Below, piece after piece: positions 36,904-64,000 of a DNA stretch of 64,000 bases (position 1 is its first letter; each line of letters opens with the position of its first letter). A program made the position numbers and the translations under genes. The DNA comes from Rufibacter immobilis (lineage in GTDB: Bacteria > Bacteroidota > Bacteroidia > Cytophagales > Hymenobacteraceae). The notes below the pieces were generated by a model. The model had not been told where the DNA came from. It did no database searches and saw only the letters and a program-made list of their open reading frames with translations. The stretch covers positions 682,001 to 746,000 of the forward strand of contig NZ_RJJE01000009.1 of the NCBI RefSeq assembly GCF_003721565.1, read 5' to 3'.

Positions 36904-37674
36904 TTAAACGATGGTTACTTTCACGCCCATCCCCTGCAGGGCCTTATGGGTATGCTCAGAAATGCCTTTGTCAGTGATGATCTGATCAATGTCTTCAAAA
37001 CCGCAGATCCGGCCGAAACCCCTCTTGCCAAACTTGGAGGAATCTGCCAGTACAATGGTTTTCTGGGAGATATTGATCATCTGCCGGTTCAGGTGCGCCT
37101 CCATCACATTGGTAGTGGTAAACCCGAACTCCAGGTCAATGCCATCTACGCCCAGAAACAATTTACTGCACGAAAAATCTGTGAGGATATTCTCTGAGTA
37201 AGGTCCCGTCACGGACGAGGAACTGCGCCGCAACAAGCCCCCCAACTGCATAATCTCTATCTCCGGGTGCCGGATCAACTCCAACGCCACATTAAGCGCC
37301 GAAGTAATCACCGTCAGGTTCTTGAGCGCCGCCGGCTGAATGTTTTTCGCCAACGCCATGACAGTGGTTCCCGAGGCAATCAGAATGGAGTCATTGGGTT
37401 CTATCAATTTGGCCGCCGCCACCCCAATACGGTGCTTTTCATTGATCTGCATGTGCTCTTTCTCATTGACAGGCCTATCAATGGTATAAGGATTGTTCTG
37501 GGTAGCGCCGCCATGCGTCCTGAAAAGGAGCCCCTTGTCTTCCAGAAGCTTAAGATCTTTTCTGATGGTCACGGAGGAGACGCTCAGTTCATCGCACAAA
37601 TCCAAGACGGCTACCTGCCCCTTCTGCTGCAGTTTATTGATTATATGTTGATGCCTTTCGGTGATGTTAATCAT
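36904..37674 (-). CDS. glpR: DeoR/GlpR family transcriptional regulator
   Basis: A 256-residue DeoR-family repressor: N-terminal winged helix (MINITERHQHIINKLQQKGQ, VSSVTIRKDLKLLEDKGLL, FRTHGGATQ) and C-terminal sugar-phosphate-sensing domain (ILIASGTTVMALAKNI, LTVITSALNVALELI, FLGVDGIDLEFGFTT, VLADSSKFGKRGFGRI). Being divergent from glpD-glpK-glpF-glpT, it most likely senses glycerol-3-phosphate and represses the regulon. A shared 11-base motif lies before both glpR and glpD. GlpR is named by context; other DeoR members look alike. Confidence 0.85.
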   Translation of the reverse strand: MINITERHQHIINKLQQKGQVAVLDLCDELSVSSVTIRKDLKLLEDKGLLFRTHGGATQNNPYTIDRPVNEKEHMQINEKHRIGVAAAKLIEPNDSILIASGTTVMALAKNIQPAALKNLTVITSALNVALELIRHPEIEIMQLGGLLRRSSSSVTGPYSENILTDFSCSKLFLGVDGIDLEFGFTTTNVMEAHLNRQMINISQKTIVLADSSKFGKRGFGRICGFEDIDQIITDKGISEHTHKALQGMGVKVTIV

Positions 37675-37685
37675 TAGAACAACTA

Positions 37686-37696
37686 TTAAAACGAAA
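37686..37696 (+). promoter_or_regulatory. candidate GlpR operator, copy near glpR
   Basis: TTAAAACGAAA, 11 bases before the glpR start; identical to the motif at 38076-38086. DeoR-type regulators often bind such AAACGAAA/TTTCGTTT sequences, so this is a candidate only. Confidence 0.4.
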
Positions 37697-38075
37697 TCAA
37701 ATGAAATATATAAAATTTTATATCAATATACTATCCTCGCCGTCAACTCTCCCCCGTTCCTACTCCTTCCTCTCTTAGGAGACACCTGCTAAAAGACCTC
37801 TTTATGTCTGAAAAGCAAGGTTTTACTATAAAGAGACTCTTCTAAAGCTGAAATTCACTTCTTGACCAGTTCCTTAAAGATATAAGAAAATTTCTTGAAT
37901 AAGCCTTTCACTTTCCTCCCCTCCATAGCCTAATGAATTTTATTCTATAGATAGTGATTCTATACGAATTGACCAGAAAAGCACCTCACTGCTTATTAAA
38001 TTTCTAAAATACCTATACAGCAGGATAATTCTTTTATGTAATTTCTTTTGCTTTTCTTATTTCAGTAACATAATT

Positions 38076-38086
38076 TTAAAACGAAA
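38076..38086 (+). promoter_or_regulatory. candidate GlpR operator, copy near glpD
   Basis: TTAAAACGAAA, 36 bases before the glpD GTG; the second copy of the motif at 37686-37696. Confidence 0.4.
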
Positions 38087-38122
38087 CAAAAAGCAACCAT
38101 CTACTCACCAATAATAAGTTAC

Positions 38123-39775
38123 GTGAAAGAAAAAGAACTTAACCCTTCGTTTTTCAAGAGAGAGTTATTCTTACAGAAGATACAGGATGACACGTCTGTA
38201 TGGGATATGATTGTAATTGGAGGGGGTGCCACTGGATTAGGAGTTGCTTTGGACGCAGCATCAAGAGGTTTTAAGACTTTACTGGTAGAGCAGGCAGATT
38301 TCGCGAAAGGAACTTCCAGCCGCAGCACAAAACTAGTCCATGGCGGGGTACGCTATTTAGCCCAGGGAGACATCAAACTGGTGTACGAAGCACTCTATGA
38401 ACGTGGCTTATTATTACAGAATGCCCCCCACCTGGTAAACGTGCAGTCGTTTGTGATCCCCAACTACACCTGGTGGAACGAAATGATGTACGGCGTAGGC
38501 TTAACCGTCTATGACTTAATGGCAGGCCGTTACCGGTTCAACAAAACTACCCTGCTTTCTGGCAAAAAAGTAGCCCGCCTTCTCCCTAACATCAGGACCA
38601 GCGGCCTGAAGGGAGGCGTGCAGTATTTTGACGGACAATTTGACGATGCCCGCCTGGCCCTTAACCTTGCCCAAACCTGTGCTGAGCAGGGCGGCGTGCT
38701 GTTGAATTACATGCAGGTAAGTAATCTCCTTAAAGACAGCCAAGGCAAAGTGGCCGGGGTTACCGCCAAAGATCTTGAGTCTGGGCAGGAATACCACCTA
38801 AAAGCCAAAACGGTAGTGAACGCCACCGGCGTTTTTGTGAACGAAGTATTGCAGATGAACGCTCCCGCGCAACATCCGCTGGTTAGGCCAAGCCAGGGAG
38901 TACACGTGGTATTGGACAGCTCCTTCCTGGAGGGAAGCAATGCCCTGATGATTCCTAAAACCTCAGACGGACGCGTTTTATTCGCGGTGCCGTGGCACAA
39001 GCATTTGCTGGTAGGCACCACTGACACGCCTCTGGACAAGAATAGCCTGGAGCCGCTGGCGCTTGACAAGGAAATAGACTTCATCTTGGAAACGGCCGGT
39101 CAGTACATGGTGCGCAAACCTACCCGCGCCGATGTATTAAGCGTTTTTGCCGGACTACGTCCCTTGGCTGCCCCTACCAAGAACACGAACAGTACCAAAG
39201 AAATCTCCAGAAGCCATAAACTGTTGGTAGCTCCTTCGGGCCTTGTCACCATTACGGGTGGCAAATGGACTACGTACCGCAGAATGGCACAGGATACGGT
39301 AGACAAAGCCATTGAAGTAGGTGCTTTACCGGCTAAGCCCTGCGTGACCTCTTCCCTGAAAATCCACGGATTCTCTGCCCCGCAGGCTACCGCGGCTCCG
39401 CTTTCCATTTACGGCTCAGACAAACGGTACATCCAGGAATTAGCCAACCAGTTCCCAGAGTTGAACCTCCCGCTGCATGAGCAGTTCTCCCATATTGGCG
39501 CAGAGGTCATTTGGGCAGTTAGAAATGAAATGGCCCGCACCGTGGAAGATGTCTTAGCCAGGAGAATGCGGGTTCTGTTCCTGAACGCCCGGGCCGCCAT
39601 GGACATGGCTCCCAAGGTAGCAAGCCTCATGGCAGAAGAACTAGGCCTAGACGAACAGTGGCAGCAAGAGCAAGTGCAGGCTTTCTTCAGTCTGGCTTCC
39701 AATTACCTGCTGGAAGCCTATACCCCCTCCGTTGCCAATCCTGTACAGAAGCAATCTTTGAGCTACAAAAACTAA
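38123..39775 (+). CDS. glpD: glycerol-3-phosphate dehydrogenase (FAD, aerobic)
   Basis: A 550-residue flavoprotein that oxidises glycerol-3-phosphate to dihydroxyacetone phosphate and passes electrons to quinone at the membrane. The start is GTG at 38123. The FAD fold begins [22 protein letters not shown] near 30; [45 protein letters not shown] and [12 protein letters not shown] are all GlpD blocks, and a C-terminal helical domain follows. First gene of the glp operon; glpK starts 5 bp after its stop. Confidence 0.96.
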
Positions 39776-39780
39776 CGACT

Positions 39781-41304
39781 ATGGCTGAATATATACTTTC
39801 ATTTGACCAGGGCACTACCAGCTCCCGTGCCATTGTATTTAATCAGCAGGGGAACATCGTCTCCCTGGCCCAGAAGGAGTTCACCCAATTCTATCCGCAT
39901 CCGGGCTGGGTGGAGCATGATCCTAATGAAATCTGGTCTACGCAAATTGGTGTAGCCGCCGAGGCCATTTCCAAAGCAGGTTTACGGGCTGAGCACATTG
40001 CCGCTATCGGGATCACGAACCAACGGGAAACCACCGTGGTATGGGACCGCCGAACCGGGGCCGCCATTCACAATGCCATCGTCTGGCAAGACCGCCGCAC
40101 CGCCGCCTACTGCGACCACCTGAAAGAACAGGGACTGGAAGAGATGATCCAGCAGAAAACCGGCTTGGTGATTGACGCTTACTTCTCTGCCACTAAAGTG
40201 AAATGGATACTGGAGACCGTAGCTGGTGCGCGCGAAAAAGCAGAAGCTGGCCATCTAGCTTTTGGCACCATAGACTCCTGGCTTATCTGGAACCTGACCG
40301 GTGGTAAAGTACACGCCACCGACGTGACCAACGCCTCCCGCACGCTGCTGTTCAACATCCATACCCTGGCGTGGGACCCTGAACTGCTGGAACTGTTTGA
40401 TATACCGGCCAGCATGCTGCCACAGGTCACTTCTTCCAGTGAAGTGGTGGGCGAGACTTCAGCCTCCATTTTTGCCACCCGCATACCAATTGCAGGCATT
40501 GCTGGCGATCAGCAGGCGGCTCTGTTCGGGCAGATGTGCACCAAGCCAGGCATGGTCAAAAACACCTATGGGACCGGCTGCTTCATGCTGATGAACATCG
40601 GCGAAAAGCCTATTCTCTCCACCCATAAGTTAGTCACCACCGTGGCCTGGAAGATCAAGAATCAGGTGCATTATGCGTTGGAAGGCAGTATTTTCATTGC
40701 CGGCGCGGTAGTGCAATGGCTACGGGACGGCTTGGGAATTATTTCCACCTCTTCTGAGGTAGAGGCTCTGGCTCAGAAAGTAGACAGCAGCGAAGGCGTT
40801 TACTTTGTTCCCGCCTTCGCTGGTTTGGGTGCCCCCCACTGGGACCAGCACTCCCGGGGCACGCTGGTGGGCATGACCCGCGGCACCACCTCCGCCCACA
40901 TCGCCCGGGCGGGTTTGGAAAGCATCGCCTTCCAGACCATGGAAGTCCTGAAAGCCATGGAGGCAGATGCCGGCATAGAAATCAAGGAACTTCGGGTAGA
41001 TGGCGGCGCAACAGACAACAACCTGCTCATGCAGTTTCAAGCTGACATTCTGCAGGCAAGCGTGGTAAAACCAGCCATTACCGAAGTCACCGCCATAGGA
41101 GCCGCTTACCTGGCCGGTTTAGCGGTTGGCTTCTGGGAAAGTGTAGACCAAATTCAGGAGCAATGGAATATCCATGAGCACTTTGAGGCCAGCAGCGAAG
41201 CGCACAATACCAAAGCGCTTACTGCCGGATGGTTACGAGCGGTACGAGCCGCGAAGGCCTGGGCCCAGGATGATCAATTAGAACCAGCTTCTATCTTAAC
41301 CTAA
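39781..41304 (+). CDS. glpK: glycerol kinase
   Basis: A 507-residue FGGY kinase that phosphorylates glycerol to glycerol-3-phosphate. I use the ATG at 39781 ([20 protein letters not shown]), since the longer frame overlaps glp[38 protein letters not shown] and [11 protein letters not shown] form the glycerol site; [26 protein letters not shown] and the FGGY signature [19 protein letters not shown] follow. It lies between glpD and glpF with gaps of 5 and 7 bp. Cytoplasmic. Confidence 0.97.
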
Positions 41305-41311: not shown

Positions 41312-42040
41312 ATGTCAGCATTTACAGCCGAAGTAATAGGAACCATGTTCCTGATTATTCTGGGAGGCGGCGTGGTCGCGAATGTGGTGTTAAAAGGCAC
41401 CAAAGGCAATAACGCCGGCTGGATGGTGATTACCACGGGTTGGGCTTTGTCTGTGTTTGCCGGAGTGGTGATTGCGGGCCCATATAGCGGCGCGCACCTG
41501 AACCCGGCCGTAACCCTGGCCCTGGCCATTGTGGGAAAGTTCGCTTGGGATCAGGTGAGCCTCTACATCGCCGCCCAAATGTTGGGGGCTATCTTGGGCG
41601 CATTACTTGTCTGGCTTATCTATAAGCCTCATTTTGACACCACGGAAGACTCTCTGGCGCAACTAGCCGTGTTTAGCACCGGGCCTGCCATCCGGCACCC
41701 GTTTGCCAACTTGTTCAGTGAAGCACTAGGTACTTTCGTGCTGATCTTCGTCATCCTGTACATCACTACCCCAGAAATGGGCGAACAGAAGACTCCTATC
41801 GGTATGGGATCCCTGGGTGCTCTACCGGTTACTTTCCTGGTGTGGGCCATTGGCTTATCCTTAGGCGGTACTACCGGCTATGCCATCAATCCGGCCCGGG
41901 ACTTAGGCCCCAGAATCGTGCACAGCCTCATACCCATCAAGAACAAATGCCACAGTGACTGGCGCTATGCCTGGGTACCAGTGCTTGGCCCTCTGGCAGG
42001 GGCTACCGTTGCAGCGCTTCTGTTTATGATTTTACAATAA
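41312..42040 (+). CDS. glpF: glycerol facilitator (aquaglyceroporin)
   Basis: A 242-residue MIP-family channel for passive glycerol entry. Six helices and the two NPA half-helices are present: GAHLNPAVTLAL and GYAINPARDLGPR (the Asp after Arg is the glycerol-channel marker). FTAEVIGTMFLIILGGGVVANVVL is the typical N-terminus. It lies 7 bp after glpK and 162 bp before glpT. Confidence 0.95.
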   Translation: MSAFTAEVIGTMFLIILGGGVVANVVLKGTKGNNAGWMVITTGWALSVFAGVVIAGPYSGAHLNPAVTLALAIVGKFAWDQVSLYIAAQMLGAILGALLVWLIYKPHFDTTEDSLAQLAVFSTGPAIRHPFANLFSEALGTFVLIFVILYITTPEMGEQKTPIGMGSLGALPVTFLVWAIGLSLGGTTGYAINPARDLGPRIVHSLIPIKNKCHSDWRYAWVPVLGPLAGATVAALLFMILQ

Positions 42041-42202: not shown

Positions 42203-43585
42203 TTGAAAGTTTCAAACAAAACAAACATTTCCTCCTCAGCGCCTACAAAAAAGGGCCTGTTCCCGCCTGCCCCTCACATTGAGCAATTGCCCATTGAGAG
42301 GATTGACCCTGAATATAAAAAATTACGCACCCAGGTATTCCTGGGCATTTTCCTGGGATATGCAGGCTATTACCTGGTCCGCAAGAACTTCTCGCTGGTG
42401 ATGCCCGACTTGATTGAACAAGGCTACTCCAAAGCCGATTTAGGCTTTGCATTGTCTGGCGTTTCCATTGCCTATGGTTTGAGCAAGTTCCTGATGGGAA
42501 ATGTCTCTGACCGAAGCAACGCCCGCACTTTCCTGAGCGTGGGACTGCTGCTCTCGGCGCTTACCATGATCTTGATGGGAGTTGCCCCGCTTGCCACCAG
42601 TTCCATCACCATCATGTTCATTCTGCTGTTCCTGAACGGTTGGTTTCAGGGAATGGGCTGGCCTCCCTGCGGCCGGGTAATGGTGCATTGGTTCTCCACG
42701 AAGGAAAGAGGCACCAAAATGTCTATCTGGAACGTGGCCCATAATGTGGGTGGCGGATTAGTAGGCCCTATCGCTATTGCGGCGGTTGCCATCTTCGGTT
42801 CCTGGGAAAGTAAATTCTATTTCCCAGGCTTGGTAGCGTTGGTGTTTGCCGCTATTGCTTATATGCTGGTTAGAGATACGCCTCAGTCTTGCGGTTTGCC
42901 TACCATTGAGGCTTATAAAAATGACTATCCAGCCAATTATTCCGCCGCCCAAGAGCAGGAACTCACCGCCAAGCAGATTTTCTTTGAGTACGTCTTCAAC
43001 AACCGGGTACTCTGGTACATCGCTTTCGCGAATGCTTTTGTGTACTTGGTGCGCTACGGCATTCTGGACTGGGCGCCTACTTATCTGGAAGAAGCCAAGG
43101 GTTTCTCGGTGAAAGAGAGCGGCTGGGCTTATTTCGCTTATGAATATGCGGGTATTCCCGGCACCCTGCTTTGCGGCTGGATCAGTGACAAGGTATTCAG
43201 AGGTCGCCGCGCCCCGGCTACCATTATCTACATGGTGCTGGTCTTGATTGCGGTACTGGTGTATTGGAAAAATCCGGCGGGCAACCTCTGGATCGACAAT
43301 GTGGCCCTGATCTCTATCGGCTTCCTGATTTACGGCCCCGTGATGCTGATTGGAGTACAGGCGCTGGATCTGGTACCTAAGAAAGCTGCCGGTACTGCGG
43401 CCGGACTCACAGGCTTGTTCGGTTACCTGGGGGGGGCGCTCTTTGCCAATATCGCCATGGGTTTCATTGTAGACCACTGGGGCTGGGATGGAGGATTCAC
43501 CATGCTGGTAGCCGCCTGTCTGCTTTCCATTCTATTCACTGCTTTTACTTGGAAACGGGAGAAACTGCATCTTAATCTTCAATAA
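42203..43585 (+). CDS. glpT: glycerol-3-phosphate transporter (MFS, organophosphate:Pi antiporter)
   Basis: A 460-residue 12-helix MFS permease. The start appears to be TTG at 42203, because no in-frame ATG lies before the first helix. [38 protein letters not shown], the GlpT/UhpT YYxVRKNFxLxMP signature, identifies the organophosphate:phosphate antiporter family; [28 protein letters not shown] is another block. In this operon glycerol-3-phosphate is the obvious substrate. SusC starts 41 bp downstream, so the transport gene connects the glp operon with the SusCD locus. Confidence 0.93.
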
Positions 43586-43625: not shown

Positions 43626-46600
43626 ATGACAACACTTTTACAGCAACCTCCTATCCGCAGGAATACCCTCAGGAAAGGTCTGCTCATTGGCTCCTGCCTA
43701 CTCATGATGGGCACTACCCTACTGCCATTGCCTGCCGCAGCGGCTGTTTTTTTCCAACAGACACCGCAGGCCAATAAAGTGCCCGTGAAGGGAAAGATAG
43801 TTGACAAAACAGATGGCTCAGTCATGCCAGGAGTAACAGTTTTTGTCAATGGCCAAGCAATGGGCATGTCCAATGCCGACGGAACATTTCAGGTGAGCGC
43901 AGAAACTGGCTCAGTCCTCTCTTTCACGTTTATTGGCTATCTACAGCAAAAGATCACTATTACCAAAGCTGAAGACAATCTTACAGTTACCATGACTTCA
44001 GATGCCAAGCAACTGAACGAGGTAGTAGTGACAGCCTTGGGTATTGAGCGGGAAGAAAAAGCCTTAGGCTATTCTACCGCCACGGTACAAGGAGATGAAC
44101 TCACCAATGCCATGTCCAATAACTGGACCGATGCCCTTTCAGGAAGAGTGGCAGGTTTGAACATGACCAAGTCAGGCGGTGGACCTGCTGGCTCAAACAA
44201 AGTGCTTCTAAGAGGTCAAAGTCAACTTGATGGAGGTGGCGAGGCCCTAATTGTAGTGGACGGTGTGATTGTAAGTTCCAGAATCACGGGGACAGGAAGC
44301 GGTTCATATCTTAGTAATGATTCACCTGTTGACTTTGGCAACGGTCTAAGTGATATCAACCCAGACGATATTGAAAGTGTTTCTGTCTTAAAAGGGCCAG
44401 GTGCCGCCGCCCTTTATGGTAACCGTGGGGCTAACGGTGCTATTGTCATCACTACCAAGTCAGGGAAACCCACCCAAAAAGGCATTGGGGTTTCCTTCAA
44501 CTCAAACACAACCATCTCGCCTATCTCAAGATGGCCTGATTATCAGTATGAATACGGCCAAGGTGCTGCTGGTCAAGACACTTGGTACTCTTATAATTCC
44601 TCTGTGGACGGAGCCAGTACCCGTAGCACCAGCTCTGCCTGGGGTGCCAAGTTTGATGGCCAGGAATATTTCCAGTATGACCCTGTTACCAACACCAGAG
44701 GTTTAGAGAGAACCCCATGGGTACCCTACAAAAACAACAGGAAGGACTTCTTTGAAACTGCCAAGACCTTTACCAACAGTATATCAGTTGAAGGTGGCAC
44801 CGCCAAAACTACAGCTCGTCTTTCATTTACTAACCTTACCAATACCTGGATCATTCCTAATACTGGTTATAACCGCAACACCGTTTCTTTATCTGCCAGT
44901 CAAAAAGTCACAGATAAACTCCAGATTGCCACAAAAATTAACTATACCAATAAGTATAGTGACAATTTGCCTTCTACAGGCTATAACAACCAAACTATCA
45001 TGTATTTCATGATAGGGATGGTACCAAACGCTGATATTAACTGGTATAAGAACTACTGGGTACCGGGCAAAGAAGGTGTGACCCAAATCAGCCCATTCAG
45101 CTCTTTGGTAGACAACCCTTATTTGATGGCCTATGAAATGCTGAACAAGTCTAACCGCAATGAGTTGGTAGGAAACGTAACCGCTACCTACAACTTTACC
45201 AAAGACTTAAGTTTAATGGTACGTTCTTCCATGAACCTTTCTCATGAGGCTCGTTCCCAGCAGCGGCCTAAAGACACTGAGAAATACAAAGACGGGATGT
45301 ACCGTACCCAGAATATATTCTCTCAGGAAATGAACAGTGACTTCCTATTGCGTTATGGCCGCACCTTAACTGACAAGTTTGAGGTGAATGCATCAGTTGG
45401 AGGAAGCCGCATGGAAAATAAATATAATAGAGATGAGGTCAGAGCAGAAAAACTGATGTACCCAGGCATTTTCACGTTTGCCAACAGCCGGAACTTGCTT
45501 CTTACCCTCCCTTATCGTAGCGGGTTTTCAGTCAATAGTTTATACGGTCTTGCTCAATTCAGCTTCAATGATTATTTGTTCCTTGATTTAACAGGGCGTA
45601 ATGACTGGAGTAGTACTCTGGCCACTAAGACTTCTGTGAAGAATACTTCTTTCTTCTACCCATCAGTAAACCTTAGTGCTATTATTTCTGAAATTACAAA
45701 TATGCCTAGCCAAGTATCTCTCTTAAAATTGAGAGGCTCTTGGGCGCAGGTAGGTAGTGGTGGTACTACTCCGTATTATACTTCGTATGGCTATAACTCC
45801 ACAGATTTCCCTTCTGGCTTAGCTAACCCAACGGTCATTCCTAATCAAGACTTACAAGCGTTGTTAACAACTAGCGTGGAAGTAGGCCTTGACCTGCGTT
45901 TATTCAAAAGCAGATTAGGAATAGACGTTACCTTGTACAACAATAATACTGATAAGCAAATTGTACAAGCACCCCTAGACAGATCTACCGGTTATAATTC
46001 TATTATCCTCAACTCAGGTCTGGTACGAAATAAAGGTATTGAGATACAAGCCAATGGTACGCCCATCAAAAACCTAAAAGGCTTTACCTGGAACCTCTTT
46101 GGAACGTTTGCTGCCAACCGTAGCACCATTGTCTCTCTGGCAGATAGCATTAATACCCTTGTCATGCAAACAGGACCAAGAGGTACCATGGAAGCCAGAC
46201 CAGGCGGACGTATGGGTGACCTGTATGGTTTAGGTTATGAGCGCTCTCCAGATGGCCAGATTGTGTATAATCAACTAGGTTATCCTATTTTGGGCGAAAC
46301 CGCCATTTATTTGGGTAATAGCACCCCAGACTTTACAGGGAGCTTAGGAACTGAACTGCGCTATAAACAATTTAAATTTAATGTTCTCTTTGATGCCCAA
46401 TACGGTGCAGTTGCTTACTCATTATCAGAGTCTGCGCTTGCAGACGGTGGCAAACTCAAGAAGACGCTGCCTGGCCGCTACAATGGTATTATTGGTAATG
46501 GGGTTGTTAAAAATGATGATGGCACCTACCGTAAGAACGACATCATTGCCACCAACATTCAAGCCTATTATTCTGAGCACTTTAAACGTGATAACGTGGA

Positions 46601-55245: not shown

Positions 55246-56640
55246 ATGAACCGCCGCAAACTCCTCAAATCCCTGGGCCTGAGCATCGGCGCCGCCGTGA
55301 TCAGCACGGAGGCCCTGGCCAAGCTGGCAGACAACAAGTACGCCTACTCCATCCCGCCCAACCCGGCGCACAAGCCGCTCAGCAAAGCCGTGACGGCCAT
55401 CACCATAGGGGCGGGCAGCCGGGGCACGGTCTACGGGAACTACGCCGCCAAGTTCCCCGACCAGCTCGACATCATCGGGGTGGCCGAGCCCAACGCGTTC
55501 CGGAACGAGAAGTACGCCACCCAGCACAACATCGCCGCAGAGAACCGCTTCAAGACCTGGGAGGACGTGTTCAGCCGCCCCAAGTTCGCGGACGCGGTCA
55601 TCATCTCCACCCCGGACAACCTGCACTACGCGCCCTGCATGAAGGCCCTGGCCATGGGCTACGACATCCTGCTGGAGAAACCCATCGCGCCCACCGAGAA
55701 GGAGTGCCGCGATATTCTCAAGCTGGCCAAGAAGAACAACCGCATCGTGGCCGTGTGCCACGTGCTGCGCTACGCCCCGTACTTCGTGAAGATGCGCGAG
55801 CTCATCCAGCAGGGCGCCATCGGGGACATCGTGAGCGTGCAGCACTTCGAGCCCATTGAGCACCTGCACATGGCCCACTCCTACGTGCGCGGCAACTGGC
55901 ACAACTCCAAGGAGACCACCCCCATCATCCTGGCCAAGTCCTGCCACGACCTGGACATCCTCCGCTGGGTGGTGGGCAAGCCCAGCCAGCGCATCGCGGC
56001 CATGGGCGACCTGAAACTGTTCCGCAGGGAGAACGCCCCCGCCGGCAGCACCGCCCGCTGCACCGACGGCTGCAAGGTGGAGCGCGAGTGCCCGTACTCG
56101 GCCATCAAGCACTACTACGAGGGCCGCAAGCGCACCGCCGTGCTGGACCTGCCCGCCGACAAGGCCAAGCACCCCGAGGTGATCATGGAGAAGCTCAAAA
56201 CCACCAACTACGGCCGCTGCGTGTACCGCATGGAGAACGACCAGCCCGACCACTACGTGGCCAGCATCCAGTTCGCCGACAGCGTGACGGCCAGCTTCTC
56301 CATGGAGGCCTTCACCTCCTACCACGGCCGCCGCACCCGCGTCATGGGCACCATGGGCGACATGGTGGGCGACATGACCGAGCTGGTGGTAAACGACTTC
56401 CGGACCCGCAAGGAGCTGAAGCTGGTGCCCAAGGCCGAGGACGTGGACGGCTACAAGAACAGCGGCCACGGCGGCGGAGACTGGCTCCTGGTGCGCGACT
56501 TCGTGCAGGCCGTGGGCCAGCAGAACCCCAAGCTGCTCACCTCCACCATCGACGAGTCCATCGAGGCGCACCTCATGGGCTTCATGGCCGAGGAGAGCCG
56601 CAAGAAAGGCAAGATCATGGACATCAGCATGAGCGTGTAA
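55246..56640 (+). CDS. Gfo/Idh/MocA family oxidoreductase or NAD-dependent glycosidase, Tat-exported
   Basis: A 464-residue protein with a twin-arginine signal (NRRKLLKSLGLSIGAAVIST). The NAD-binding Rossmann part has ITIGAGSRGTVYGNYAAKFP and the catalytic Lys block LEKPIAPTEKECRDIL; KSCHDLDILRWVVG holds the catalytic His/Asp region. A Cys cluster (about 272, 276, 283: RCTDGCKVERECPYSA) may bind a metal. Relatives include periplasmic sugar oxidoreductases and redox-dependent glycosidases (GH109-like). Codon third positions are almost all G or C, unlike every neighbour, and a 505-codon frame is open on the other strand as a result. This suggests different ancestry. Confidence 0.85.
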   Translation: MNRRKLLKSLGLSIGAAVISTEALAKLADNKYAYSIPPNPAHKPLSKAVTAITIGAGSRGTVYGNYAAKFPDQLDIIGVAEPNAFRNEKYATQHNIAAENRFKTWEDVFSRPKFADAVIISTPDNLHYAPCMKALAMGYDILLEKPIAPTEKECRDILKLAKKNNRIVAVCHVLRYAPYFVKMRELIQQGAIGDIVSVQHFEPIEHLHMAHSYVRGNWHNSKETTPIILAKSCHDLDILRWVVGKPSQRIAAMGDLKLFRRENAPAGSTARCTDGCKVERECPYSAIKHYYEGRKRTAVLDLPADKAKHPEVIMEKLKTTNYGRCVYRMENDQPDHYVASIQFADSVTASFSMEAFTSYHGRRTRVMGTMGDMVGDMTELVVNDFRTRKELKLVPKAEDVDGYKNSGHGGGDWLLVRDFVQAVGQQNPKLLTSTIDESIEAHLMGFMAEESRKKGKIMDISMSV

Positions 56641-56834: not shown

Positions 56835-58253
56835 ATGAAAAGAAGAACCTTTCTCCAGAGCCTTGCTTTATTTTCGGGCGGTCTGGTCTTAGCTGGCCCC
56901 AGTGTCTTCGCCAGAAGCAAAAAGGCTGCGCAAACCCTCAGCGGCACCGTGAAAGCCAAAGGCAAGAAATTAGCCAAGGTGGTGGTATCAGACGGCTTCT
57001 CCGTGGTGCAAACCAACAAGCGTGGCCAGTTTGAACTGCCGGTGAATGATCGGGCCAAGTTTGTCTTTGTCTCCATTCCGGCAGGCTACGAGTTCCCGCA
57101 GGAGAAAGGATTGGCCCGCCATTACCAGCCCATCGGCAACGGCAAGAAAGACAAGTATGATTTTGAGCTGCAACCGCTGGGCAAAGACGATTCCAAGCAC
57201 TCGTTCATTGTGTGGGCAGACCCGCAGGTGAAAGACGCCAAAGACGTAGCCCTCATGATGCAGGACTCCGTGCCCGATGCCCAGAAACTGGTGCAGAGCC
57301 TAGGCAAAGACGCGCTGGTGCACGGCATTGGCGTGGGCGATCTGGTGTGGGACAACCACAAACTCTTCCCAGACTACAGCAAAGCCGTGGGCGCCATTGG
57401 CGTTCCGTTCTTCCAGGCCCTGGGCAACCATGACATGGACTACCGCCTGGGCGGCGATGAAACCTCAGACGCCACCTTCCAGAAGATCTTCGGGCCTACG
57501 TACTACTCGTTCAACCGCGGCAAAGCCCATTACATTGTGCTGGATGATGTGCGGTATCTGGGCAAGGAGCGCGAGTATGACGGCCACCTCAATGAGCAGC
57601 AACTAGCTTGGATCAAGCAGGACCTGAGCTTCGTGCCCAAAGACCATCTGGTGATCATCAGCGCGCACATTCCCATCTCCAGTGCCGTGAAGAACCGGGA
57701 AGACCTGTTTGCGCTCCTGAAGGGCTATCAGGTGCATATCATGACCGGCCACACGCACACCAACTACAACATGCTGCGCGAAGGCGTGTATGAGCACGTG
57801 CACGGCACGGTGTGCGGCGCCTGGTGGTCTGGTTCTATCTGCACCGACGGTACACCCAACGGCTACGGCGTATACGAGGTCAACGGCAACCAATTGCAGT
57901 GGTACTACAAATCAACGGGCAAAGACAAATCGTACCAGATCAGCCTGGACATTGAGAAACTCACCGGCCAGAACCGCTTCATCGCCAACGTCTGGAACTG
58001 GGATCCTGCCTGGAAAGTGGAGTGGTACGCCGACGGCAAAGCCATGGGCGCGCTGCAAAACACCAAAGGCTATGACCCCGAGGCGGTGCGCACCATGAAA
58101 GGCGACAAACTGCCTGCCCGCCGCGCCTTCGCCGAACCCGCCAGAACCGAGCACCTCTTCATGAGCCACTTCGGGCCCGAGGTGAAACAGGTGAAAGTGG
58201 TGGCCACCGACCGCTTCGGGAATCAGTTTGAGGCGGTTTCGGCTTCAGCCTAA
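56835..58253 (+). CDS. Tat-exported calcineurin-like phosphoesterase with MetallophosN/C domains
   Basis: A 472-residue exported phosphoesterase. Twin-arginine signal KRRTFLQSLALFSGGLVLAG, an N-terminal MetallophosN beta-sandwich (about 35-105: LSGTVKAKGKKLAKVVVSDG), the calcineurin-like domain (about 115-330) and a MetallophosC domain (about 335-472). Metal ligands are in VWADPQV, GIGVGDLVWDN, LGNHDMDYR, IISAHIPIS and IMTGHTHTNY. It would hydrolyse phosphomono- or diesters in the periplasm. In this locus a glycerophosphate or sugar phosphate product is plausible (inference). Confidence 0.92.
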   Translation: MKRRTFLQSLALFSGGLVLAGPSVFARSKKAAQTLSGTVKAKGKKLAKVVVSDGFSVVQTNKRGQFELPVNDRAKFVFVSIPAGYEFPQEKGLARHYQPIGNGKKDKYDFELQPLGKDDSKHSFIVWADPQVKDAKDVALMMQDSVPDAQKLVQSLGKDALVHGIGVGDLVWDNHKLFPDYSKAVGAIGVPFFQALGNHDMDYRLGGDETSDATFQKIFGPTYYSFNRGKAHYIVLDDVRYLGKEREYDGHLNEQQLAWIKQDLSFVPKDHLVIISAHIPISSAVKNREDLFALLKGYQVHIMTGHTHTNYNMLREGVYEHVHGTVCGAWWSGSICTDGTPNGYGVYEVNGNQLQWYYKSTGKDKSYQISLDIEKLTGQNRFIANVWNWDPAWKVEWYADGKAMGALQNTKGYDPEAVRTMKGDKLPARRAFAEPARTEHLFMSHFGPEVKQVKVVATDRFGNQFEAVSASA

Positions 58254-58259: not shown

Positions 58260-58299
58260 CTGTTTAGGGGCTCTTTTTCTGAAAAGAGCCCCTAAACGC
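58260..58299. repeat. intergenic palindromic repeat, copy 21
   Basis: CTGTTTAGGGGCTCTTTTT and AAAAGAGCCCCTAAACGC, 6 bp after the phosphoesterase stop; terminator-like. Confidence 0.9.
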
Positions 58300-58506: not shown

Positions 58507-58590
58507 AACGAAACAACCAATAAGCTTGAGGTCCCTCTCGCGTAGGTCTGCCTCGCCCGTGGGCGAATAATTTCAATGTCTCACCCCAAC

Positions 58591-60753
58591 ATGAAGTATA
58601 CATTAGTTCTCTTTGCGGTAGTCCTGTTCGCCTTCGGGCAGCCGGTACGGGCGCAGCAAAATACCAAGCAGATTCTGGTCCAGACCGACAAAGTCACGCT
58701 GGCGTTTACCGTGGGCAAAAACCAGAAACTGTACCAAAGCTATCTGGGTCCGAAACTCAGCAACGCCCAGGACAACGGCCAACTCTCCGGTACCAAGCAC
58801 GAGGCGTACGCGCCTTCGGGCACCGATAATCTCTTTGAGCCTGCCATCCGGGTACTGCACAACGACGGGAATCCTTCGCTGGAGCTGAAATACGCGCAAC
58901 ATACCGCCCAGCAGCCCGAGGCCAACGTGACGCAGACCGCTATTCACCTGAAAGATCCCAAGTACCCCGTGGAGGTGATTCTGCACTTCAGCGCGTACCA
59001 GAAGGAAAACATCATCAAGGCCTGGACCGAGATCAAGCACCAAGAGAAGAAGCCGGTGGTGCTGGGCAACTTCGCCTCGGCGATGCTGCACTTTGACGCG
59101 CCCAACTACTGGCTCTCGCAGTTTCACGGCGATTGGGCCGGGGAGATGCAGTTGCAGGAGCACCAGCTTACCAGCGGCATCAAGGTCATTGACAGTAAAC
59201 TGGGCACCCGCGCCCACAAGTTCCAGAGTCCTACGTTTCTGCTGTCTTTAGACAAACCAGCCGGTGAAAACCACGGCGAGGTCATTGCCGGTACGCTGGC
59301 ATGGTCGGGGAATTTTCAATTTGCCTTTGAGCTGGATGAGCAGAACAGCCTGCGCGTGCTGGCGGGCATGAACCCCCACGCCTCAGAATATCACTTGCCC
59401 GCCAATAAACCCTTCGTGACGCCCGCCTTCATTTTCACTTACAGCCAGCAGGGCAAAGGCGAGGCCAGCCGGAGCTTCCACCGTTGGGCCCGCAACTATG
59501 GCATTCTGGACGGAAACAAACCGCGCCTCACGCTGCTCAACAACTGGGAAGCCACCTACTTTGATTTTGATCAGCAGAAACTGGTGGGGCTCTTTGACGG
59601 TGCCGCGCAACTGGGCGTGGATTTGTTTTTGCTGGACGATGGCTGGTTCGGGAATAAATACCCAAGAAACGCCGCCAACGCCGGTCTGGGCGACTGGCAG
59701 GAAAACAAAACCAAACTGCCCAGCGGCATTGGCTATCTGGTGGAGGAAGCCGAGAAGAAAGGCGTGAAATTTGGCATCTGGCTGGAACCCGAGATGGTGA
59801 ACCCCAAAAGCGAACTCTACGAGAAGCACCCCGACTGGATTCTGAAACTGCCCAACCGCGACGAGCATTACCAGCGCAACCAGCTCATTCTGGACCTCAC
59901 CAACCCCAAAGTGCAGGACTTCATCTTCAAACTGGTAGATGATCTGCTCACCAAAAATCCGCGGCTGGCCTATATCAAATGGGACTGCAACCGCACGTTC
60001 ACCAACGCGTTTTCGCCCAACCTCAAGGTACAGTCGCATTTGCCCATTGACTACGTGAACAGCCTGTATAAGACGCTGGCCAGAATACGCCAGAAGCACC
60101 CGCATCTGCCCATCATGCTCTGCTCCGGCGGCGGCGGACGGGTAGACTACGGTGCCCTCCCCTACTTCACGGAGTTCTGGCCCAGCGACAACACTGATGG
60201 TCTGGAGCGCATCTTCATCCAGTGGGGCTATTCGCAGTTCTTCCCGGCGGTGGCTATGTCGGGGCACGTGACCAGCTGGGGCAAGCAGACTGTGAAGTTC
60301 CGGACCGATGTGGCCATGATGGGCAAACTGGGCTATGACATTCAGGTGAGCGAGTTCAGTGAGCAAGAGCTGCAGTTCAGCAAGCAGGCCGTGGCCAATT
60401 ACAAGCGGCTAAGTGACGTGATCTGGTTTGGCGACCAGTACCGCTTGGTGTCGCCGTACGAGGAGAAGCGCGCCGTGCTCCTATACGTGAACGAGGCGCA
60501 GAGCAAAGCCGTGCTGTTCTCCTATAACCTGCAAACCCGCCACCGCGACCGCTTTACGCCGGTTCGGCTGCAAGGCCTCAATCCGCAGAAGCAGTACCTG
60601 GTGCAGGAAACCAACCTTATGCCTGAGACCAAATCCGCGTACGCGGCCAACGGCAAAACCTATTCCGGCGACTACCTCATGAAAGTGGGCATTGCCGTGT
60701 CGCCTACCACCGCGCTCACCAGCGCCGTGTTTGAAATCACCGAGAAACCTTAA
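58591..60753 (+). CDS. alpha-galactosidase, GH36
   Basis: A 720-residue secreted enzyme, starting at MKYTLVLFAVVLFAFGQPVRAQ (58591); a frame start at 58576 adds five codons. It has an N-terminal beta-supersandwich (about 25-300), the TIM barrel (about 310-640) and a C-terminal beta domain. Barrel blocks are NNWEATYFDFDQQKLVGLFD, FLLDDGWFGNKY and FGIWLEPEMVNPKSELY. The nucleophile is the Asp of YIKWDCNR (about 465) and the acid/base Asp lies in WPSDNTDGLERI (about 533). It removes terminal alpha-galactose from oligosaccharides, glycolipids or teichoic acids. Its periplasmic location fits the neighbouring phosphoesterase and GH89. Confidence 0.95.
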   Translation: MKYTLVLFAVVLFAFGQPVRAQQNTKQILVQTDKVTLAFTVGKNQKLYQSYLGPKLSNAQDNGQLSGTKHEAYAPSGTDNLFEPAIRVLHNDGNPSLELKYAQHTAQQPEANVTQTAIHLKDPKYPVEVILHFSAYQKENIIKAWTEIKHQEKKPVVLGNFASAMLHFDAPNYWLSQFHGDWAGEMQLQEHQLTSGIKVIDSKLGTRAHKFQSPTFLLSLDKPAGENHGEVIAGTLAWSGNFQFAFELDEQNSLRVLAGMNPHASEYHLPANKPFVTPAFIFTYSQQGKGEASRSFHRWARNYGILDGNKPRLTLLNNWEATYFDFDQQKLVGLFDGAAQLGVDLFLLDDGWFGNKYPRNAANAGLGDWQENKTKLPSGIGYLVEEAEKKGVKFGIWLEPEMVNPKSELYEKHPDWILKLPNRDEHYQRNQLILDLTNPKVQDFIFKLVDDLLTKNPRLAYIKWDCNRTFTNAFSPNLKVQSHLPIDYVNSLYKTLARIRQKHPHLPIMLCSGGGGRVDYGALPYFTEFWPSDNTDGLERIFIQWGYSQFFPAVAMSGHVTSWGKQTVKFRTDVAMMGKLGYDIQVSEFSEQELQFSKQAVANYKRLSDVIWFGDQYRLVSPYEEKRAVLLYVNEAQSKAVLFSYNLQTRHRDRFTPVRLQGLNPQKQYLVQETNLMPETKSAYAANGKTYSGDYLMKVGIAVSPTTALTSAVFEITEKP

Positions 60754-60783
60754 CCCTAATAACAGCCTATCACCCAAAGTACT

Positions 60784-61692
60784 ATGAACAAAACCATTTC
60801 TGCCCTTTTACTTTCCACAGTCTTGTTTGCGGGTTGCAAAAGCTCCCAGCAAAGCAGCTCTAAGTTGCCGGATTTACCTAAATATGACACCCAGGGCCAT
60901 CGAGGTGGCCGTGGCCTCATGCCCGAAAACTCCATTCCGGCCATGCGCAAAGCCATTGACTTGGGCGTGACTACCCTGGAAATGGACTGCCACATCACCA
61001 AAGACGGCCAGGTGGTGGTGACGCATGACCCGCACATCAATTACCTGTACGCCCGCACCCCAGAAGGCAAAGACATTCCCAAAGCCGATGCCAAGAAATA
61101 CGCCATTTACCAGATGCCGTATGACCAGGTGCGCACGTTTGAGATGGGTACCAAAGAGTACAAGGCGTTTCCGCAGCAGACCAAGGTGAAAACCTACATT
61201 CCGTTGCTTTCTGAATTGGTTGACTCGGCGCAGGCGTACCTCAAAGCCACCGGCAAACCGCAGGTGTTCTACAACATTGAGGTGAAAGCCAAAGCCACCG
61301 GCGACAATGAACTGCACCCCGCCCCAGAACAGTTTGTGACCGCCATGATGACGGTTTTGGAAGCCAAAGGCATTGTTCCGTATCTCACCATCCAGTCGTT
61401 TGACCTGCGTGCCCTGAAGGTGCTGCACAAGAAATACCCGCACGTGCGCAGCTCTTTCCTGGTGGACAACAAGAAGACGTTGGAGGAAAACCTGCAGGAA
61501 CTCGGTTTCAAGCCCACGGTGTACAGCCCCAACTACAAACTGGTCACGGCAGAACTGGTGAAGAAGTGCCACAACCGCGGCATCAAAGTCATTCCCTGGA
61601 CGGTGAACACCAAAGACGAGATAGAGTATGTCAAAGGCCTGGGCGTAGATGGCATCATTTCTGATTACCCCAACCTGTTTTCGCAGAAATAA
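60784..61692 (+). CDS. glpQ: glycerophosphodiester phosphodiesterase lipoprotein
   Basis: A 302-residue GDPD lipoprotein (signal NKTISALLLSTVLFAGC). The GDPD barrel shows GHRGGRGLMPENSIPAM (catalytic HR and Glu-Asn), LEMDCHITKDGQVVVTHDP (metal Glu/Asp and second His), VFYNIEVKAK, TIQSFDLRAL and VIPWTVNTKDEIEYV with DGIISDYPNLF at the C-terminus. The enzyme releases glycerol-3-phosphate from glycerophosphodiesters and, in some bacteria, from teichoic acid chain ends. It starts 30 bp after GH36. Its product is just what GlpT, GlpK and GlpD in this window handle. The symbol is by analogy. Confidence 0.93.
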   Translation: MNKTISALLLSTVLFAGCKSSQQSSSKLPDLPKYDTQGHRGGRGLMPENSIPAMRKAIDLGVTTLEMDCHITKDGQVVVTHDPHINYLYARTPEGKDIPKADAKKYAIYQMPYDQVRTFEMGTKEYKAFPQQTKVKTYIPLLSELVDSAQAYLKATGKPQVFYNIEVKAKATGDNELHPAPEQFVTAMMTVLEAKGIVPYLTIQSFDLRALKVLHKKYPHVRSSFLVDNKKTLEENLQELGFKPTVYSPNYKLVTAELVKKCHNRGIKVIPWTVNTKDEIEYVKGLGVDGIISDYPNLFSQK

Positions 61693-61700
61693 ATGGCTTG

Positions 61701-61744
61701 GTCTGTTTAGGGGCTCTTTTTCTGAAATCAGCCCCTAAACAGAC
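61701..61744. repeat. intergenic palindromic repeat, copy 23
   Basis: GTCTGTTTAGGGGCTC and CAGCCCCTAAACAGAC around TTTTTCTGAAAT; 8 bp after the GDPD stop. Confidence 0.9.
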
Positions 61745-61785: not shown

Positions 61786-62478
61786 ATGAAACTGAAATTC
61801 GCTTTTGCGGCCGCCCTTTGTGCTTTGTTCGCGGGCTATCAGGCGCAGGCCCAAACCCAGCCCGCCAAGTATGACAGCACCTACCGGCCCGCGGCGTATG
61901 AACTGAAAGTAGCCCAGTTCAAGTCGTACCCCAACTCTTCCAATGACATTATTTTCCTGGGCAACAGCCTCACCGCCAACACTGACTGGGCCGAGCTCCT
62001 GGGCATGCCCAACGTGAAAAACCGCGGCATCTCCGGCGACATCACCTACGGCGTACTGGAGCGTCTGGACGAGGTCATTGAAGGCAAACCGGCCAAAGTG
62101 TTCATCCTGATCGGGATCAATGACATTTCGCGCAACATCCCAGACCAGTTGATTGTGGCCAACTACCAGAAGATGATCTCACGCATCAAGGCGGGTTCGC
62201 CTAAGACCAAAATTTACTTCCAAACCCTGCTGCCCACCAATGAGGCTTTTGACAAGTTCAAGAACCACTACCACAAAGAAGAGCACATTCTGTGGGTGAA
62301 CAACGCCCTCAAAGAGCTGGCCAAAAAAGAGAAAATCGAGTTGATTGACCTGTACCCCAACTTTCTGGACACCAACAAGAAGCTGGTGAAAGAATACACC
62401 CATGACGGCCTGCACCTCACCGTGGCCGGTTACCAGAAATGGGTAGAAGTCCTGAAGAAAGGGAATTACCTGAAATAA
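61786..62478 (+). CDS. SGNH/GDSL-family hydrolase
   Basis: A 230-residue secreted esterase: signal peptide to about QAQAQ, block I FLGNSLTANTDW (nucleophile Ser with Asn where many have Asp), block II NRGISGDITYGVLERL (Gly), block III LIGINDISRNI (Asn) and block V DGLHLTVAGYQKW (Asp, His). The oxyanion and catalytic residues are complete. SGNH enzymes remove acetyl or acyl esters from sugars or lipids. Here it could deacylate a decorated glycan before glycosidase action. It lies between the GDPD and the GH20 gene. Confidence 0.9.
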   Translation: MKLKFAFAAALCALFAGYQAQAQTQPAKYDSTYRPAAYELKVAQFKSYPNSSNDIIFLGNSLTANTDWAELLGMPNVKNRGISGDITYGVLERLDEVIEGKPAKVFILIGINDISRNIPDQLIVANYQKMISRIKAGSPKTKIYFQTLLPTNEAFDKFKNHYHKEEHILWVNNALKELAKKEKIELIDLYPNFLDTNKKLVKEYTHDGLHLTVAGYQKWVEVLKKGNYLK

Positions 62479-62493
62479 GCGTTCCCCTTATTT

Positions 62494-62535
62494 CCTGTTT
62501 AGGGGCTGTTTTTAGAAAAATAGCCCCTAAATAGG
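62494..62535. repeat. intergenic palindromic repeat, copy 24
   Basis: CCTGTTTAGGGGCTGTTTTT and AAAAATAGCCCCTAAATAGG, 15 bp after the SGNH stop; terminator-like. Confidence 0.88.
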
Positions 62536-62630
62536 GTCCTTTTGGGCGGCCCTTCCGCGTCACGTCAATGAGTAGAAACTATCCGCAGTGAATTCAAGAA
62601 GTTTGAGTTGCCGATAGAAAAATGGCGCGA

Positions 62631-62678
62631 AAAAAGCTCTCCTGTTTCCTCTCTGGCTTAGGAACAGGAGAGCTTTTT
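62631..62678. terminator. terminator-like hairpin before the second GH20 gene
   Basis: AAAAAGCTCTCCTGTTTCC and GGAACAGGAGAGCTTTTT pair with one bulged base around an 11-base loop, with A and T tracts at the ends. This makes a second stop after copy 24. Confidence 0.85.
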
Positions 62679-62795
62679 CATTTTTAGAATAAGGCGCTTA
62701 ATCTTACTATAATTTATTAAGTTAGCCCAACCACATGGTAAAGCACAGAAGACCTGTGTGTTTCCTCTCTCCCAAACTCCTTACCTCACCAACCT

Positions 62796-64000
62796 ATGCG
62801 CAAACGTCTCCCCTTTCAACTCCTGTTTTTGCTGGCAGGAGCCTTCTTCCTCCACCTGACCGTGCAGGCGCAGGATGCCAGCCGCTACGCCATCATCCCT
62901 AAGCCTGTAAAACTCACACCTGCCAAAGGTGAATTCACCCTTACTTCCAAAACTAAGCTGATCTTGGGCAGCTCCGTGCCTGAGCTTAAAACCGCCACTG
63001 ATTTTTTGGTGAACCTGGTGGAGAGCTCCGCCGGCTACAAGATGGAATACGGCACCCAGGCTAAGAAAAACACCATCGCCTTTACCTTAGATAACACCAT
63101 CTCAAACGAGGAAGGGTACCGGCTGGAAGTGACAACGAAGAAAATCACGGTGGCCGCTAAAACCCCTAAAGGCGCTTTTCTGGCCATCCAGACGCTGCGC
63201 CAGCTCCTGCCAACCACCATTGAAACCAAAAACTCCGGCCAAAAGAGCTTTAAGATACCGGCCGTCAGTATTGAAGATGCGCCCCGCTTCGCCTACCGCG
63301 GCATGATGCTGGACGTAGCCCGCCACTTTCAGCCCATTGATTTCGTGAAGAAATACATAGACCTGCTGGCCTTCTACAAGATCAACACGTTCCACTTTCA
63401 CCTCACCGAGGATCAGGGCTGGCGCATTGAGATCAAGAAATACCCCAAATTACAGGAGATAGCCGCTTGGCGCAATGAAACCAAAGTAGGTCACCGCCGC
63501 GAAACCGAAAAAGGCTATGACGGCAAACGCCACGGCGGTTACTACACCCAGGAAGAGCTGAAAGACCTGGTGAAATACGCCCAGAACCGGTTCATTACCG
63601 TGATTCCCGAGATTGAGATGCCGGGCCATTCCATGGCCGCGCTGGCCGCTTACCCAGAGTTGGGCTGCAAAGACACCACCTATCAGGTAGCCGGTACCTG
63701 GGGAGTTTTCAAAGACATTTACTGCCCCAATGAAGTCACCTTCAAATTTCTGGAAGACGTGCTCACCGAGGTGATGGCCATTTTTCCCAGCAAGTACATC
63801 CACATTGGCGGCGATGAAGCCCCTAAAGACGTCTGGAAACAATCTGCGCGCGCGCAGGAAGTGATGCAGCGGGAAGGCCTGAAAGACGAGCACGAGTTGC
63901 AGAGTTACTTCATCCAGCGCATGGAGAAATTCCTTAACGCCAAAGGCCGCGCCATCATTGGCTGGGACGAGATTCTGGAGGGCGGCCTGGCTCCTAATGC
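62796..64000 (+). CDS. beta-N-acetylhexosaminidase, GH20 (cut by window end)
   Basis: 401 codons are visible from the ATG at 62796; the C-terminus lies beyond the window. Signal peptide (about 1-26, ending VQAQ), GH20b domain (about 30-160: YAIIPKPVKLTPAKGEFTL, TPKGAFLAIQTLRQLLP) and the start of the GH20 barrel (RFAYRGMMLDVARHFQP, NTFHFHLTEDQGWRIEIKKY, VIPEIEMPGHSMAALAAYPEL). The catalytic Asp-Glu pair is Asp340-Glu341 in HIGGDEAP. It should release terminal beta-HexNAc. It follows the SGNH gene on the same strand and probably extends the glycan-degradation locus. Confidence 0.93.
   Translation, partial: MRKRLPFQLLFLLAGAFFLHLTVQAQDASRYAIIPKPVKLTPAKGEFTLTSKTKLILGSSVPELKTATDFLVNLVESSAGYKMEYGTQAKKNTIAFTLDNTISNEEGYRLEVTTKKITVAAKTPKGAFLAIQTLRQLLPTTIETKNSGQKSFKIPAVSIEDAPRFAYRGMMLDVARHFQPIDFVKKYIDLLAFYKINTFHFHLTEDQGWRIEIKKYPKLQEIAAWRNETKVGHRRETEKGYDGKRHGGYYTQEELKDLVKYAQNRFITVIPEIEMPGHSMAALAAYPELGCKDTTYQVAGTWGVFKDIYCPNEVTFKFLEDVLTEVMAIFPSKYIHIGGDEAPKDVWKQSARAQEVMQREGLKDEHELQSYFIQRMEKFLNAKGRAIIGWDEILEGGLAPN

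Follow-up and report, generated by a model that had tools for sequence, protein, structure and literature searches.

A glycerol-phosphate regulon joined to a SusCD locus in Rufibacter immobilis: a probable glycerophosphodiester-utilisation cassette

The glp regulon of Escherichia coli clusters the glycerol-3-phosphate transporter GlpT with a glycerophosphodiester phosphodiesterase (GDPD), its periplasmic partner GlpQ, and also holds glpD, glpK, glpF and a DeoR-type regulator. The role for which SusCD systems are mainly known is the import of sugar polymers. Here we describe a gene island in which the two are joined, located in a 64,000-nucleotide stretch of the Rufibacter immobilis genome (hereafter the window; G000:C1:682001-746000 of 4.77 Mb). 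The block opens with a DeoR-type regulator at 36904 and extends to ~64469, where a glycoside hydrolase family 20 (GH20) gene ends just beyond the window; it is followed on the opposite strand by sucD (Table 1). The glycerol-phosphate genes, the SusCD importer and the regulator are arranged in one operon-like run, and the importer looks built to feed sn-glycerol-3-phosphate. A sequence-only reading of this DNA had already named the genes, and Pfam confirms each of them in its place; the gap between glpT and susC, given there as 41 bp, measures 40 bp.

Beyond what it shares with E. coli, the island adds the SusCD importer, a PLD-fold lipoprotein, a metallophosphoesterase, an SGNH esterase and glycosidases, all in one unit of gain and loss. 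The Bacillus subtilis teichoicases GlpQ and PhoD serve own-wall turnover in a Gram-positive bacterium, whereas the island is proposed to let a Gram-negative one use a foreign polymer; PhoD also differs in fold from the PLD fold of the island's putative endo-enzyme. What the two would have in common is a split between an exo-acting enzyme (GDPD) and an endo-acting one (here the PLD-fold protein) on poly(glycerol phosphate) (PMC7086022, available part). The PUS loci of Flavobacterium (PusCD) likewise place a SusCD-type pair with phosphodiesterases or phosphatases and inner-membrane organic-phosphorus transporters; in the part of the source available to us they are induced by low phosphate and set against the polysaccharide-utilisation loci (PULs) that bear carbohydrate-active enzymes (CAZymes), and its main text, figures aside, contains neither “glp” nor “glycerol” (PMC8115612). 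The window island, in contrast, has CAZymes, a DeoR-type regulator and GlpT. Measured against PULs, it has the adjacent susC and susD and the co-localized CAZymes (GH89, GH36 and GH20), and no extracytoplasmic-function (ECF) sigma or anti-sigma gene was found in it; measured against PUS, it combines SusCD with PLD, metallophosphoesterase and GDPD genes in a cluster that its three glycoside hydrolases prevent from being CAZyme-free. Closest in gene content are SusCD loci of Hymenobacter, which carry related SusC, SusD and DUF5689 proteins (9/9), a metallophosphoesterase (9/9) and a GDPD (7/9). The island differs from these in having no ECF, FecR or STN match and a DeoR-type regulator with a glp operon instead. 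Among the matches listed in a search of the open-access literature, none concerned the use of teichoic acid by a SusCD locus or the union of such a locus with glp genes; one paper on DUF5689 is reportedly about natural transformation.

Do the glp genes and the SusCD genes belong together? In a sample of 16 genomes of the genus, glpT and glpK (both E 1e-100) and a GDPD orthologue (E 1e-50) were found in the same seven, and at these thresholds all three are missing from the other nine, some of which have more distant GDPDs elsewhere. Every one of these nine carries lysR and sucD together at the homologous site. Six have only ~90-550 bp between the two, with no island gene and no frame longer than 105 aa; G011 has a 665-aa MBG-domain protein there; in G006 and G013 glpD is the sole island gene (L138:3496-5079; L139:3715-5298), and may be a relict or the ancestral seed of the island. 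These two and the seven island genomes are those in which glpD was found (E 1e-60), the other seven being negative at this threshold. Since glpT, glpK and GDPD co-occur all-or-none at a single site, the glp pathway comes and goes with the SusCD genes in this genus, and because glpK was not found in the nine island-less genomes, the glp genes are not housekeeping here.

The same linkage holds across the wider family. Among 150 genomes of the Pontibacter/Hymenobacter family, glpT is present in 23, seven from the genus (g1) and 16 from Pontibacter (g3), and all 23 have a GDPD on the same strand at a distance of 7.5-17.2 kb. With five GDPD genes in its 4.77 Mb, the window's own genome would be expected to have one within 20 kb of a given gene in about 4% of cases; the 23 genomes are related, and 23/23 does not equal 23 independent draws. 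All 23 mapped islands hold glpD, glpT, susC, susD, the metallophosphoesterase, GDPD and the SGNH esterase. The regulator is seen in 22, the stretch read for the remaining one (G146) stopping short of its place, and the PLD gene in 22, being missing from G084. At E 1e-30 the PLD protein was found in 22 of the 150 family genomes, each one with an island, in none of the 127 lacking one, and in none of the other 394 genomes of a 395-genome sample of the phylum. The 16 Pontibacter islands keep the same core order in other surroundings, as lysR and sucD were found in none of the 20-kb stretches and the regulator lies at the opposite, 3' end, facing the block, in the 15 where it is seen. Conserved synteny beyond glpT and susC, on which the sequence-only reading had staked its case beforehand, was searched for and found in these relatives, and the unit is not refuted. 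In the phylum sample eight further genomes have GlpT (E 1e-100), and each has a GDPD within ~3 kb (by Pfam in G291, G383, G520 and G523; by tblastn in G526, G460, G492 and G499), so that GlpT and GDPD are coupled as in glpTQ in 23/23 family and 8/8 other genomes. SusCD also lies upstream in two of the eight (G291 and G526), and an SGNH esterase by GlpT in G291, G383 and G520.

The island core is thus a glpR-type regulator, glpD, glpT, susC, susD, the PLD-fold lipoprotein, the metallophosphoesterase, GDPD and the SGNH esterase, and the glp genes form one unit with the SusCD, phosphodiesterase and glycosidase genes. The reading we consider probable is that this block serves as a glycerophosphodiester-utilisation cassette, complete in itself, tied into the glp regulon, and gained, lost and relocated as a whole.

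Table 1. Features of the island in window coordinates, with supporting matches and occurrence among the 23 mapped islands.
Feature	Position	Strand	Evidence and occurrence
DeoR-family regulator, GlpR-type by context, divergent from glpD	36904..37674	-	Pfam DeoRC + HTH_DeoR
AAACGAAA box, putative regulator-binding half-site	38079..38086	+	ends 36 nt before glpD start; second copy at 37689
glpD, glycerol-3-phosphate dehydrogenase	38123..39775	+	Pfam DAO + DAO_C; 23/23 islands
glpK, glycerol kinase (FGGY), start corrected	39781..41304	+	Pfam FGGY_N/C; 17/23 islands
glpF, glycerol channel (MIP)	41312..42040	+	Pfam MIP; 17/23 islands
glpT, glycerol-3-phosphate transporter	42203..43585	+	TIGR00712 above cut-off, 1pw4 match; 23/23 islands
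susC, TonB-dependent outer-membrane channel	43626..46862	+	TIGR04056 590.7 vs 368 bits; 23/23 islands
susD, SusD-like_2 lipoprotein	46888..48351	+	PF12771 367 bits; 23/23 islands
DUF5689 lipoprotein	48412..49704	+	PF18942 84 bits; 15/23 islands
IPT/TIG + NHL-repeat lipoprotein	49718..51049	+	Pfam; 1/23 islands (window's only)
PLD-fold lipoprotein, predicted surface-facing	51464..52750	+	PLDc_2; both HxK half-sites; 22/23 islands
GH89 alpha-N-acetylglucosaminidase family, accessory	52846..55086	+	Pfam NAGLU_N, NAGLU, NAGLU_C; 4/23 islands
Gfo/Idh/MocA oxidoreductase, Tat-like signal, accessory	55246..56640	+	Pfam; 6/23 islands
Calcineurin-like metallophosphoesterase (MetallophosN-core-C), Tat-like signal	56835..58253	+	PF16371/PF00149/PF16370; 23/23 islands
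GH36 alpha-galactosidase family, accessory	58576..60753	+	Pfam Melibiase, GH36N, GH36C; 4/23 islands
GDPD, glycerophosphodiester phosphodiesterase lipoprotein	60784..61692	+	PF03009 133.6 bits; 23/23 islands
SGNH (GDSL) esterase	61786..62478	+	PF13472; 23/23 islands
GH20 beta-hexosaminidase family, accessory	62796..64000, on to ~64469	+	Pfam GH20; 3/23 islands
GTTTAGGGGCT...AGCCCCTAAAC palindromes	55136-55189, 56745-56788, 58262-58297, 61701-61744, 62494-62535		intergenic gaps

GlpT scores 745.6 bits against an NCBIfam glpT equivalog cut-off (TIGR00712) of 632.6 and aligns with E. coli GlpT (1pw4) over residues 19-448 (639 bits). GlpD remains under the equivalog cut-offs (291.8 vs 360 bits), with its two DAO-type domains found. 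Four relatives carry stop codons inside the glpK match when its 5' extension is included, so glpK probably begins near 39781 and not 39658. The adjacent susC and susD are separated by 25 bp, and neither Pfam nor tblastn finds an STN domain in SusC. In the PLD-fold protein both half-sites (H179/K181 and H363/K365) are invariant among 20 aligned sequences, and the predicted model is bilobal, with PLD 7e0m and the PLD3/PLD4 exonucleases as its fold matches. The metal-site motifs of the metallophosphoesterase are invariant across 34 relatives; its model is of fair confidence (pLDDT 81) and its fold matches are weak (TM ~0.36 for the best-ranked rows, normalized to the query length). The closest structures to the GDPD and the SGNH esterase are 3ch0 (234.6 bits) and 6njc (179 bits), the latter molecule being named lysophospholipase L1/sialate O-acetylesterase. 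Assignment of the Gfo/Idh/MocA protein to GH109 is not claimed, there being no entry named alpha-N-acetylgalactosaminidase among the best 60 of its 73 PDB matches. The GH20 gene is whole in L006:797-2470 (window 62796-64469), and Rfam and tRNA scans of the window gave no matches. Twin-arginine (Tat) and lipoprotein signals were judged by visual inspection of the translations. A lipoprotein with acidic residues shortly behind its lipid cysteine is directed to the surface, and otherwise it stays in the periplasm. Such residues occur in most PLD and DUF5689 rows and in fewer GDPD rows, which would place the first two proteins at the surface and GDPD in the periplasm.

How might these parts work together? 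From gene content we infer the activities, locations and order of steps, the ligand of the regulator and the substrate, as follows. The surface PLD-fold lipoprotein would act as endo-cutter on an extracellular phosphodiester polymer, the pieces being captured by SusD and DUF5689 and imported via SusC. Once in the periplasm, they would lose the substituents that block an exo-enzyme to the glycosidases and the SGNH esterase, have their ends trimmed by the metallophosphoesterase, and yield sn-glycerol-3-phosphate to GDPD. GlpT would take this up in exchange for phosphate and GlpD pass it to glycolysis, with free glycerol handled by GlpF and GlpK. A GlpR-type repressor sensing intracellular glycerol-3-phosphate would control the glpD-led operon, in place of the ECF/anti-sigma switch of related loci.

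A precedent for several of these steps may be found in B. subtilis GlpQ, which is exo-acting, digests sn-glycerol-3-phosphate wall teichoic acid, halts at glycosylated or alanylated units, and cuts lipoteichoic acid only after pre-cleavage (Walter et al., PMC7086022, in the part available). Because a GlpQ-like exo-enzyme is stopped by such substituents, glycosidases and an esterase would have a role beside it, and the fit of the island's parts to a GlpQ-type scheme is by analogy. The sequence-only reading had named (lipo)teichoic acid as the substrate; the wall type fits the GlpQ data, while the need for pre-cleavage makes “lipoteichoic” the less easy version. For the islands with glycosidases, a decorated, teichoic-acid-like poly(glycerol phosphate), more easily of the wall type, is the favored substrate, to which we give slightly less than even weight. 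The fuller proposal of a teichoic-acid PUL, which eats Gram-positive poly(glycerol phosphate) and whose sugar-stripping enzymes and SusCD receptor are swapped between strains to follow the decorations of the prey, is more tentative still.

The regulatory evidence centers on glpD. A AAACGAAA/TTTCGTTT box, which we take to resemble DeoR-family sites, lies within 150 nt upstream of glpD in six of the seven genus islands and 14 of the 16 from Pontibacter (20/23), where resampled sequence predicts 0.07 and 0.49, respectively; the box before glpR in six of the seven genus islands is in the intergenic region shared with glpD. From glpD to the NHL gene the gaps are 5, 7, 162, 40, 25, 60 and 13 bp, small enough that this run could be one transcript. 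It was proposed earlier that GlpR is the controlling sensor, and for the glpD-led operon this is plausible. The same reading saw no ECF/anti-sigma pair or hybrid sensor; queries for ECF, FecR and STN, two of each, gave no match in any of the 23 islands, and for hybrid sensors the statement covers the Pfam scan of the window's genes. The related loci are switched differently. All nine distinct SusCD loci of Hymenobacter that were tested have an ECF sigma factor, a FecR-type anti-sigma factor and a SusC extended at its N-terminus by an STN-like stretch (12 rows, three being second copies of named loci), as do 5/5 Chitinophaga loci, and the two Belliella loci have ECF and FecR with no STN match. 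In L057 and L050 both ECF and FecR are confirmed by Pfam; the STN of L057 is under the Pfam cut-off and that of L050 is not among the Pfam matches.

The glycosidases and the receptor are the variable parts. Genus islands carry GH89 in 4/7, GH36 in 4/7, GH20 in 3/7 and the Gfo/Idh/MocA gene in 4/7, with at least one of the three glycoside hydrolases in 6/7; the Gfo/Idh/MocA gene is also in 2/16 Pontibacter islands. Between the SGNH gene and sucD, G007 has GH116 and DUF2961 genes; in G009 a GH116 frame is present but shortened. At other loci of relatives (L093, L094 and L095) GH89 genes stand in tandem, sharing 34-68% identity with that of the window and lying beside a Gfo/Idh/MocA gene in G001 and G009; these probably belong to a different glycan system. 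Nucleotide identity between the window and G010, taken in 250-nt bins, is 77-89% over most of the left flank, 88-99% in the genes from glpD to glpT (79% in the glpF-glpT gap), 56-73% from susC through susD to DUF5689, 75-87% over most of PLD-GH89, 90-96% in the metallophosphoesterase, 90-97% in GH36, 75-79% in GDPD and 88-92% in SGNH. Divergence is thus sharp at 43500-49700 (the receptor genes susC-DUF5689) and at 60780-61700 (GDPD), with neighbors ~90% or more identical. We read this, together with the SusD tree, as exchange of the receptor and GDPD inside a conserved chassis; alternatively, the GDPD may have diverged fast in place. The SusD tree needs four label changes for the genus islands and five for those of Pontibacter, under a long-branch warning that includes the window's row, and the window's SusD has its top identity (67%) to a Chitinophaga SusD.

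Other SusCD loci of the genus bear on the island. Of the seven SusD matches in the window's own genome, only those of the island and of a sister DeoR-SusC-SusD-DUF5689 locus (G000:C8 ~460.8-487.3 kb; L091:10841 to L092:17356) have one of the five GDPD genes within 20 kb. This sister locus also encodes an MFS protein, an FAD oxidoreductase, Exo_endo_phos and type I phosphodiesterase proteins, a PafA phosphatase and an RbtT/DalT/CsbX-family (pentitol-type) transporter (the last two above cut-off), two FGGY kinases and a split transketolase; the start of its orthologue is on a 7.6-kb contig of G001. Judged by these genes, it looks like a candidate counterpart for pentitol-phosphate (ribitol-type) polymers, and would be a hint towards alditol-phosphate polymers. 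Simpler SusC-SusD-metallophosphoesterase loci, with no glp match as far as they were read, occur at L141:531-8335 and equivalently in G002, G003, G008, G010, G014 and G015, with a GDPD between in some (Pfam for G004 and G010, tblastn for G002); four of them, read for ~0.5-1.1 kb upstream of susC, are uninformative on ECF. The island-less G011 has a SusC-SusD-DUF5689-GDPD-metallophosphoesterase locus of the window's SusCD type (L083/L084, G011:C111 ~1503-1512 kb), with no glp genes and biosynthetic-looking genes upstream.

Several observations weigh against parts of this account. The regulator is over no NCBIfam GlpR equivalog cut-off and reaches no equivalog at all, the nearest being AgaR at 258 vs 260 bits. 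In Pontibacter the box was found before glpR in 0/15, and exact boxes elsewhere are stray (1/7 for PLD, 1/16 for susC and 1/16 for susD, otherwise none); a search before the PLD, GH and metallophosphoesterase genes gave no enrichment. From PLD onward the gaps widen to as much as 414 bp, and in five of them lie GTTTAGGGGCT/AGCCCCTAAAC-type hairpins, which may be terminator-like or a dispersed element. Wide gaps and hairpins suggest further transcripts from PLD on, and with the box not enriched before the 3' genes a single GlpR-controlled transcript for the whole block is not supported. The glp-less locus of G011 likewise gave no ECF match, which speaks against tying ECF loss strictly to the gain of glp genes. 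A function for the metallophosphoesterase from structure was dropped, the fold matches being weak. As for the decorated-glycan pathway proposed earlier, none of the 16 Pontibacter islands has GH89, GH36 or GH20, nor does the genus island of G005; the glycosidases are accessories that do not define the substrate, and since conservation does not extend to them, the substrate of the core could be one without sugar decoration.

This last point keeps alive a phospholipid head-group diet, in which membrane debris is deacylated by the SGNH esterase, the glycerophosphodiesters are imported by SusCD, GDPD frees glycerol-3-phosphate for GlpT, and the glycosidases are incidental. The core of all 23 islands, always with SGNH, GDPD and GlpT, contains no glycosidase; the same three are clustered in the distant G383 and G520, with no SusC or SusD match in the 20 kb read; and the closest SGNH structures bear the name lysophospholipase L1. 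In E. coli the Glp system itself serves glycerol-3-phosphate, glycerol and glycerophosphodiesters (PMC2648988, available part). We regard this diet as a live but less likely alternative, as it leaves unexplained the glycosidases of the six genus islands and the GH116 and DUF2961 genes of G007, and small glycerophosphodiesters would have no obvious need for a SusCD pair and a surface PLD.

The simpler SusCD-GDPD-metallophosphoesterase loci of the genus, and the similar make-up of PusCD clusters with their phosphodiesterases, phosphatases and organic-phosphorus transporters (PMC8115612, in part), could also suggest a phosphate-scavenging, starvation-induced locus like those of Flavobacterium, whose glp genes process leftover carbon. 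This is improbable: glpD, glpK and glpT belong to the unit of gain and loss, the regulator belongs to the DeoR type and a box upstream of glpD is conserved, and the main text on PUS is silent on glp, as noted above. Uptake of glycerol-3-phosphate by GlpT is, moreover, said to give phosphate counterflow and a net loss of phosphate (available part of PMC2648988). Least credible of all is the alternative of two unrelated neighboring loci, which the sequence-only reading had raised; here they would be housekeeping glycerol genes beside a mucin or glycolipid locus. The wide 3' gaps with hairpins and the variable glycosidases would suit it, but all-or-none presence, linkage in 23/23, a Pontibacter core order kept despite other flanks and the failure to find glpK in the nine island-less genomes tell heavily against it.

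The glycerophosphodiester cassette set out here would, if its polymer version is true, give Bacteroidota a route to recycle a Gram-positive wall polymer. The differing switch in related loci, together with SusCD divergence inside a conserved chassis, makes these islands a natural experiment in the re-aiming of nutrient loci.

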